Below, piece by piece: positions 17,586-18,154 of a DNA stretch of 33,892 nucleotides. Both the position numbers and the translations under genes were made by a program. This DNA is from Deltaproteobacteria bacterium. Lineage in GTDB: Bacteria; Desulfobacterota; Desulfuromonadia; Desulfuromonadales; Geopsychrobacteraceae. How positions within the stretch are numbered: position 1 is the first letter of the stretch; each line of letters starts with the position of its first letter. The stretch lies in the NCBI GenBank assembly GCA_024280485.1, contig JAJRQB010000146.1, forward strand, positions 1 through 33,892. The letters are read 5' to 3'. Below the pieces are notes generated by a model. The model saw only the letters and a program-made list of their open reading frames with translations. It did not search any database and was not told the DNA's origin.

Positions 17586-17779
17586 TCTTCTGATAGTTGA
17601 AAAACGCTAATTTTAATCACCCCCGAGATGAAACATTGTCTTTTCTGTAGGGATATTTTCTGTTCACTACACTGGCCCAACGATTTTCAGTATCTAAGAT
17701 TGGTTTGATCTTGGCCGGACGATCCGTCTCTATGCTATTCTGCGACGATAAATTTAACCAAACACTATGGGAGGTCACT

Positions 17780-18118
17780 ATGAACATCGACTGGGCATAT
17801 CTACGCAAAGGTTGAACGTCCTGCACAAATGCTCAAGAGTTTCTTGAGAAAGAACAGATTGTTGCCAAAGAAGTTGTTGATGCTCGTAAAGTTCGGATTG
17901 ATGAAGAACAAGCCTGGGCAATGCTGCAATCAGCACAATCGGTTACAGCCGCTAAGGGGAAGAAGATTCAGCGTTTTGAACAGGTAGTGAGCGAGAAAGA
18001 AGCTATCCTGAAGCAGGCGATGGGGCCCAGTGGAAACCTGCGCGCACCCTGTTATCGGGTAGGAGATGATTTTGTCATCGGTTTTAACCCTGATCTTTAT
18101 GCGGACTGGGTGAAGTAA
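17780..18118 (+). CDS. ArsC/Spx-like selenoprotein with in-frame UGA (Sec12)
   Basis: Translation from the ATG at 17780, behind a GGGAGG binding site with 5-base spacing, reads eleven residues (ending YLRKG), meets TGA at 17813-17815, and then continues in the same frame without a stop to TAA at 18116-18118. Reading TGA as selenocysteine gives 112 residues with U12-T-S-C15, a UxxC redox motif in the place of the CxxC at the start of the first helix in ArsC/Spx and thioredoxin-fold proteins. The C-terminal part has NLRAPCYRVGDDFVIGF, the cis-proline-type strand of this fold. A hairpin (17832-17848) suitable as a bacterial SECIS lies just downstream of the UGA. A perfect terminator follows the stop. 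I recall an ArsC-family (seleno)protein group in anaerobic proteobacteria. The downstream part alone would be called as a 65-residue truncation from 17921. The substrate is unknown. Confidence 0.85.
17832..17848 (+). promoter_or_regulatory. Candidate bacterial SECIS hairpin
   Basis: CTCAAG (17832-17837) and CTTGAG (17843-17848) form a 6-bp stem around the loop AGTTT. The apical loop begins 22 bases after the UGA, and G is at the second loop position. Both agree with the general bacterial SECIS rules (apical loop about 16-37 bases after UGA, G near the loop start). The stem is short, and the identification is inference from position and shape. Confidence 0.55.
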
Positions 18119-18120
18119 GA

Positions 18121-18154
18121 AAATGGCCTACCCGATATTTGTGGTAGGCCATTT
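18121..18154 (+). terminator. Intrinsic terminator after the selenoprotein
   Basis: A 12-bp perfect inverted repeat (AAATGGCCTACC at 18121-18132 with GGTAGGCCATTT at 18143-18154) begins two bases after the selenoprotein stop and is followed by CTATTT. It may also work for the convergent flavoprotein gene, because the other strand has flanking T residues as well. Its position supports 18118 as the true gene end. Confidence 0.85.

Follow-up and report, generated by a model that had tools for sequence, protein, structure and literature searches.

An in-frame UGA very probably read as selenocysteine in an ArsC/Spx-fold protein of the catalogued NF041106 family

Selenocysteine (Sec)-containing proteins related to arsenate reductases have been catalogued before. 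In the portion of its Table 1 covered here, a 2026 review lists an 'Arsenate reductase-like protein', NF041106, with the motif UxxC and the grade 'Predicted with high confidence' (PMC13188914), and for this family it cites the 2008 GOS ocean survey (PMC2398784). The part of that survey considered here contains the entry 'Arsenate reductase 2, cd03032, UxxC', with 42 sequences in 21 samples and 238 Cys homologues (PMC2398784). From the shared motif and the similar name, we infer that this row corresponds to the NF041106 family. A literature search covering listings and the beginnings of abstracts found no paper characterising an NF041106 member. Here we describe a gene on the forward strand at 17780-18118 of a 33,892-nucleotide stretch of DNA from a Geopsychrobacteraceae genome (hereafter the window), which is a new member of this already catalogued family. 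A sequence-only reading of the window had presented the gene as a 'hidden' selenoprotein; that description has to be dropped, since the family is curated as NF041106 and tabulated in the 2026 review (PMC13188914). The analysis confirmed a recoded gene that a plain ORF listing cuts to a fragment, and it sharpened the question on the family's substrate, as Sec was kept in all relatives examined and the ArsC arginines were absent.

The reading frame starts with an ATG at 17780, which follows a Shine-Dalgarno-like GGGAGG (17769-17774) at a distance of 5 nt, reaches a TGA at 17813-17815 and then stays open to a TAA at 18116-18118. The product has 112 residues with the motif U12-T-S-C15, and this layout, including the ribosome binding site and the frame continuing beyond the TGA, is as the sequence-only reading had laid it out. 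GGAG-like letters were also present within 20 bases 5′ of the ATG in many relatives. The conventional ORF list of the window contained only a 65-aa piece of the gene (17921-18118), which is the 65-residue fragment that had been anticipated. A changed genetic code was rejected, because TGA terminates 12 of the 24 large ORFs of the window and is therefore an ordinary stop here. Within the window, no Rfam match at gathering scores and no tRNA were found, and the sigma-70 promoter scan likewise returned nothing. A search with the protein gave no match among 72,556 plasmid records.

When searched with Cys in place of Sec, the protein matched the NCBIfam model NF041106.1 (ArsC_rel_Se_1) with 127.8 bits (E 2.4e-37), 42.8 bits above the cut-off of 85, and the match was full length, with residues 3-107 lying on profile positions 1-107 of 107. 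In Pfam, only glutaredoxin-like matches were obtained, all of them below their cut-offs. NF041106 was found above its cut-off in 30 of 60 genomes, one of them the source genome, and a scan of 395 phylum genomes gave 28 with the family; two genomes, the window's own and G014, were counted in both sets. Each of these 58 matches (30 + 28) carried an internal TGA.

We then considered the conservation of the UGA codon among relatives. From 138 loci put into the alignment, 136 were aligned, and TGA stood at codon 12 in all 136, including those of the isolates Malonomonas rubra DSM 5091 and Desulfuromusa kysingii DSM 7343; the two unaligned loci (L077 and L078) are members of another group. There were 104 distinct sequences among the aligned loci, and one further locus was too short for use. 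The codon is thus not a random disrupting stop in the relatives examined; a stop of that kind had been named beforehand as something that would speak against a selenoprotein. The nearest relative, 95% identical, came from a deltaproteobacterial metagenome-assembled genome, and the next among the best 80 of 297 were records of Desulfuromonadales, Geopsychrobacter, Desulfuromonas and Malonomonas. Purifying selection was evident on both sides of the UGA: the uncorrected dN/dS-like ratio was 0.04-0.14 on the 5′ side in seven of eight comparisons, the eighth being without change, and 0.16-0.38 on the 3′ side in all eight. The residues before and at the UGA were among the most conserved parts of the protein. 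As the sequence-only reading had expected, homologues aligned upstream of and through residue 12, which corresponded to a Cys in more distant homologues and to the first Cys of the Spx CxxC motif. Cys forms of NF041106 itself were not seen among the relatives examined, which in one search were the best 80 of 297. In one Geopsychrobacter-type relative (L037, G002:C189), the Sec codon is soon followed by an additional TAG in frame, which reflects either decay of the gene or an assembly error.

A hairpin was identified downstream of the UGA at 17832-17848, with a 7-bp stem (17832-17838 paired with 17842-17848), the loop GUU at 17839-17841 and a spacing of 23 nt from the UGA to the loop. The sequence-only reading had been right about the hairpin and the G in its loop, whereas its 6-bp stem and its distance of 22 bases from the UGA needed correction. 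According to the part of the review considered here, the bacterial SECIS model has an apical loop of 3-9 nt, an upper stem of 4-16 bp and a G at one of the first two positions of the loop (PMC13188914), and the hairpin of the window agrees with it on each of these points. Taken alone, this hairpin was unexceptional when compared with dinucleotide shuffles (z -0.74; 50 of 200 shuffles did as well). Of 100 free synonymous recodings of the window's own gene, 2 reached its real value. Over the 104 distinct genes, the best hairpins had a mean energy of -6.7 kcal/mol, compared with -3.5 kcal/mol after within-column exchange of synonymous codons (sd 0.27; minimum over 100 shuffles -4.05 kcal/mol) and -1.6 kcal/mol with free synonymous choice. 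In 69 of the 104 genes, the 3-nt loop began at offset 26, counted from the T of the UGA, with the loops GUU (50), GGU (11), GGC (6) and others (2). A subclass of 13 of the 104 genes (for example L061, L071 and L154) had the loop at offset 23, that is 3 nt or one codon nearer to the UGA, with GGC in 7, GGA in 3, GUC in 2 and GGU in 1; therefore a single register does not fit all genes.

The pairing was further assessed in 88 rows of the alignment. Paired cells amounted to 82.1% (74.4% after shuffling and 60.4% in the best slid position), the covariation score was 0.254 (shuffled 0.142, best slid 0.165), and cells with both sides changed numbered 38 (shuffled 8.3; best slid 33, at slide -2). The number of pairs with a two-sided change was not above that of the shuffles in these 88 rows (4 versus 3.4; 223 of 500). 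In L039, which has an Ala codon GCC and a change from Glu to Gly in the facing codon, the stem pair was kept, and the protein changed in step with the stem. As judged from these comparisons, the conservation of the hairpin across relatives goes well beyond the effect of codon choice, and on this sequence evidence the hairpin marks UGA12 for Sec.

The source genome (4.14 Mb, 96% complete) carries selA, selB and selD consecutively on contig C153 within about 4.3 kb, each above its cut-off, and the selD gene has one in-frame TGA. A tRNA-Sec was found on contig C30 with 66.9 bits, compared with a cut-off of 47. The sel genes that the sequence-only reading had proposed to look for are thus all present. 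In the set of 60 genomes, selB was above its cut-off in 55, comprising 26 of the 30 that carry NF041106 and 29 of the 30 without it; because 29 of the 30 genomes without the family carry selB, this gene alone is no predictor of NF041106. The four NF041106 genomes in which no selB was found above the cut-off (G008, G015, G022 and G036) are all fragmented, with 240-590 contigs, and G015 has a partial SelB.

An AlphaFold2 model built with 16 sequences (mean pLDDT 93.8) predicted an Spx/ArsC-type fold in which Sec12 and Cys15 occupy the CxxC site. The three Foldseek matches below E 0.001 were Spx (6gho and 6ghb) and SMU.1142C (3l78), the last of which was named Spx in the sequence-profile search of the PDB. 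VIA-align 2 gave a Z of 8.8 both to 3gkx (ArsC-related) and to 3ihq (Spx), each with an rmsd of 2.7 over 88 aligned residues; these values are moderate, and the true ArsC entries 3f0i and 3rdw (Z 7.4) and NrdH (7.3) came lower. The best match of the sequence-profile search was the glutaredoxin 3ic4 (0.00068), followed by Spx (0.0022), and in the alignment with Spx positions 12 and 15 fell on the CxxC motif and LRAP fell on LRRP, with a loosely aligned middle part. The model, both structure searches and this alignment bear out the earlier proposal of an ArsC/Spx-like fold with a UxxC motif.

Cys15 (codon TGC, 17822-17824), the presumed resolving cysteine, was Cys in 102 of the 104 distinct relatives and Ser in the other two (L072 and L142, UxxS by their codons), and is therefore not absolutely kept. 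The codons for Arg88-Ala89-Pro90 lie at 18041-18049, at the site of the Spx Arg-Arg-Pro motif. Arg88 and Pro90 were each present in 103 of the 104 relatives with one gap, and position 89 was Ala in 102 and Val in one, with one gap. Position 102 was Phe in 96, Tyr in four and Trp in three, again with one gap, and never Arg. Besides Arg88, several basic residues were strongly, though not wholly, conserved in the 104 genes, namely R9 (104), K10 (101), R36 (94), K59 (84, with Arg in 16) and K62 (93), and this conservation points to a substrate that is anionic as a whole or in part.

Within the window, a histidine kinase gene of the same strand lies upstream across a gap of 194 nt, and the downstream neighbour is a dihydroorotate dehydrogenase-like gene on the opposite strand. 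The ORFs surrounding the gene in the window and its counterparts at 80 loci (81 places in all) were clustered over up to 6 kb per side, many of these regions being shortened by contig ends. No constant neighbour emerged over the 81 places: the widest cluster, of sigma-54 activators, was present at 14 of them at varied distances, and the second widest, of histidine kinases, at 11. The most widespread Pfam family occurred in seven of the 120 nearest-neighbour proteins, and no arsenic-resistance family was among the 25 most frequent of the 136 Pfam families. An arsenic operon or another fixed partner was rejected, because no neighbour was constant over the 81 places, and the gene acts as a unit of its own. 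In five Desulfobulbus-type loci (L146, L147, L152, L154 and L157), a BioF-like gene lay 2-9 nt downstream and was followed by a BioG-like gene, in an arrangement that resembles a biotin operon and extends from the match to about +2200; the BioF-like gene scored 410 bits with TIGR00858, below the cut-off of 426.45. We regard this tight, lineage-limited pairing as local operon membership, because it was not seen in the remaining loci. Other pairings, with DNA polymerase IV, Mg-chelatase-like genes, gyrase A with NFACT, and DUF815, were likewise each limited to a few loci.

The TAA of the gene is followed by an exact 12-bp inverted repeat (18121-18154; arms 18121-18132 and 18143-18154) with a 10-nt loop, no clear T-run and a fold z of -4.79. 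The sequence-only reading had called it a terminator with a 12-bp stem. The perfect repeat stood up, and its role as a terminator is plausible only, as it went unrecognised by the terminator scan, which admits loops of 3-8 only and found nothing. The repeat sits between two convergent genes and may serve both.

Sec was also found in other Spx-like groups of the phylum. The weak matches of the NF041106 search in the 395 phylum genomes led to a second Spx/ArsC-like group (P0002; L078:1486-1829, L077:1468-1809 and L159-L165), which has an in-frame UGA and the motif UTTC, USTC or UNTC. All seven close matches of P0002 in these genomes (identity 52-99%; the query's own genome is among them) had TGA at the same place. 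In four of them, the minimum-energy fold had a GUU loop of 3 nt with unchanged spacing; two had a 5-nt loop containing GUU, and one folded differently. P0002 reached no curated cut-off, L077 passed the general TIGR01617 model (80.0 versus 75.05), and none of the three members tested (P0002, L077 and L167) passed a Sec-specific NCBIfam model. In a further Spx-like clade (L166-L172), TGA for Sec was found in L167 and L170, and Cys with the same motif in L166, L168, L169, L171 and L172, which by sequence appears to be a direct Sec/Cys exchange at the active-site position. In a 34-row tree, NF041106 formed one group (100/100) on a long branch apart from the other Sec groups, and the other groupings were weakly supported. 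The portion of the 2026 table covered here has no Spx-type Sec entry (PMC13188914), and the 2008 class 'Arsenate reductase 2' may include these Spx-like Sec groups (PMC2398784).

Taken together, the NF041106 match, the sel genes, the TGA at every aligned locus and the conserved hairpin support the functional selenoprotein that the sequence-only reading had proposed, and UGA12 is very probably read as selenocysteine. That the UGA is instead a genuine stop or arose by misassembly, so that the 65-aa downstream ORF alone, or nothing, is made, would fit the plain ORF listing, which ends at the UGA, and the ordinary folding energy of the window's hairpin by itself; yet the codon recurs in isolates as well, the residues before it are among the best conserved, and selection is purifying on either side of it, so that this explanation appears exceedingly improbable. 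The function of the protein leaves more room for debate. An arsenate reductase with Sec in place of the arsenate-attacking cysteine would agree with the ArsC-type fold, with the similarity to 3f0i and 3rdw and with the published name 'arsenate reductase-like' as given in the part of the review considered (PMC13188914). However, TIGR00014, the model of glutaredoxin-dependent arsenate reductases (curated cut-off 106.05 bits), gave no match up to E 1. The catalytic arginines of ArsC, which we take to be the Arg before Pro and the Arg of the GRP motif, were compared using a reference ArsC of the same phylum (L173; TIGR00014 138.4 bits): they are replaced by Ala89 and Phe102, positions at which the 104 relatives never have Arg. 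The 25 most frequent Pfam families of the nearest-neighbour proteins likewise speak against an arsenic context. The protein has the predicted ArsC-type fold but does not pass as an ArsC, and it is probably not an arsenate reductase; as a full account of the gene we regard this reading as very unlikely.

A redox switch in the manner of Spx, binding RNA polymerase and sensing oxidation through a Sec12-Cys15 bridge, draws on the Spx entries, which rank first in Foldseek and joint first in VIA-align 2, and on the position of UxxC on the Spx CxxC. Against it, the TIGR01617 (Spx/MgsR) score was 19.6 bits, far from the cut-off of 75.05, the alignment with Spx is loose in the middle part, and Sec in all relatives examined would suit catalysis better than a switch, so we consider such a role unlikely. 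The protein is most likely a selenol/thiol reductase, and we hold with considerable confidence that it is a stand-alone, 112-residue selenoprotein of NF041106 with an ArsC/Spx fold of the thioredoxin superfamily, in which Sec12 would attack and Cys15 would resolve. While the recoding machinery, the recoding signal and the conservation are read from sequence and the fold is a predicted one, we infer nucleophile, resolution and recycling as follows. Sec12, which opens the first helix and takes the position of the catalytic cysteine of Spx/ArsC, would be the attacking selenolate that reduces an oxidised substrate. Cys15 would then release Sec12 by forming a Sec12-Cys15 selenenylsulfide, which a thioredoxin- or glutaredoxin-type system, the presumed partner, would reduce again. 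The protein would thus act as a stand-alone cellular redox protein and not as part of an arsenic operon.

In comparison with the known systems, the protein shows the same UxxC motif as NF041106 and matches it over its full length, and no difference was found, which makes it a member of that family. With ArsC (TIGR00014) it shares the fold and the position of the nucleophile, and it differs from L173 at both arginine positions, the Arg just before Pro corresponding to Ala89 and that of GRP to Phe102, and in having UxxC where L173 has CSKS. With Spx/MgsR (TIGR01617; B. subtilis Spx, PDB 1z3e, 3gfk and 7f75) it shares the fold and the CxxC/UxxC position, and it differs in having LRAP where Spx has LRRP and in its separation from the TIGR01617-like rows of the tree. 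Tentatively, NF041106 might represent a separate class of Sec-dependent enzymes built on the ArsC fold, namely selenol reductases acting on an anionic substrate, which lost the ArsC arginines and kept Sec without a return to Cys, in a phylum where the ArsC/Spx fold took up Sec in several separate groups; we put this forward as a possibility that is still rather doubtful.
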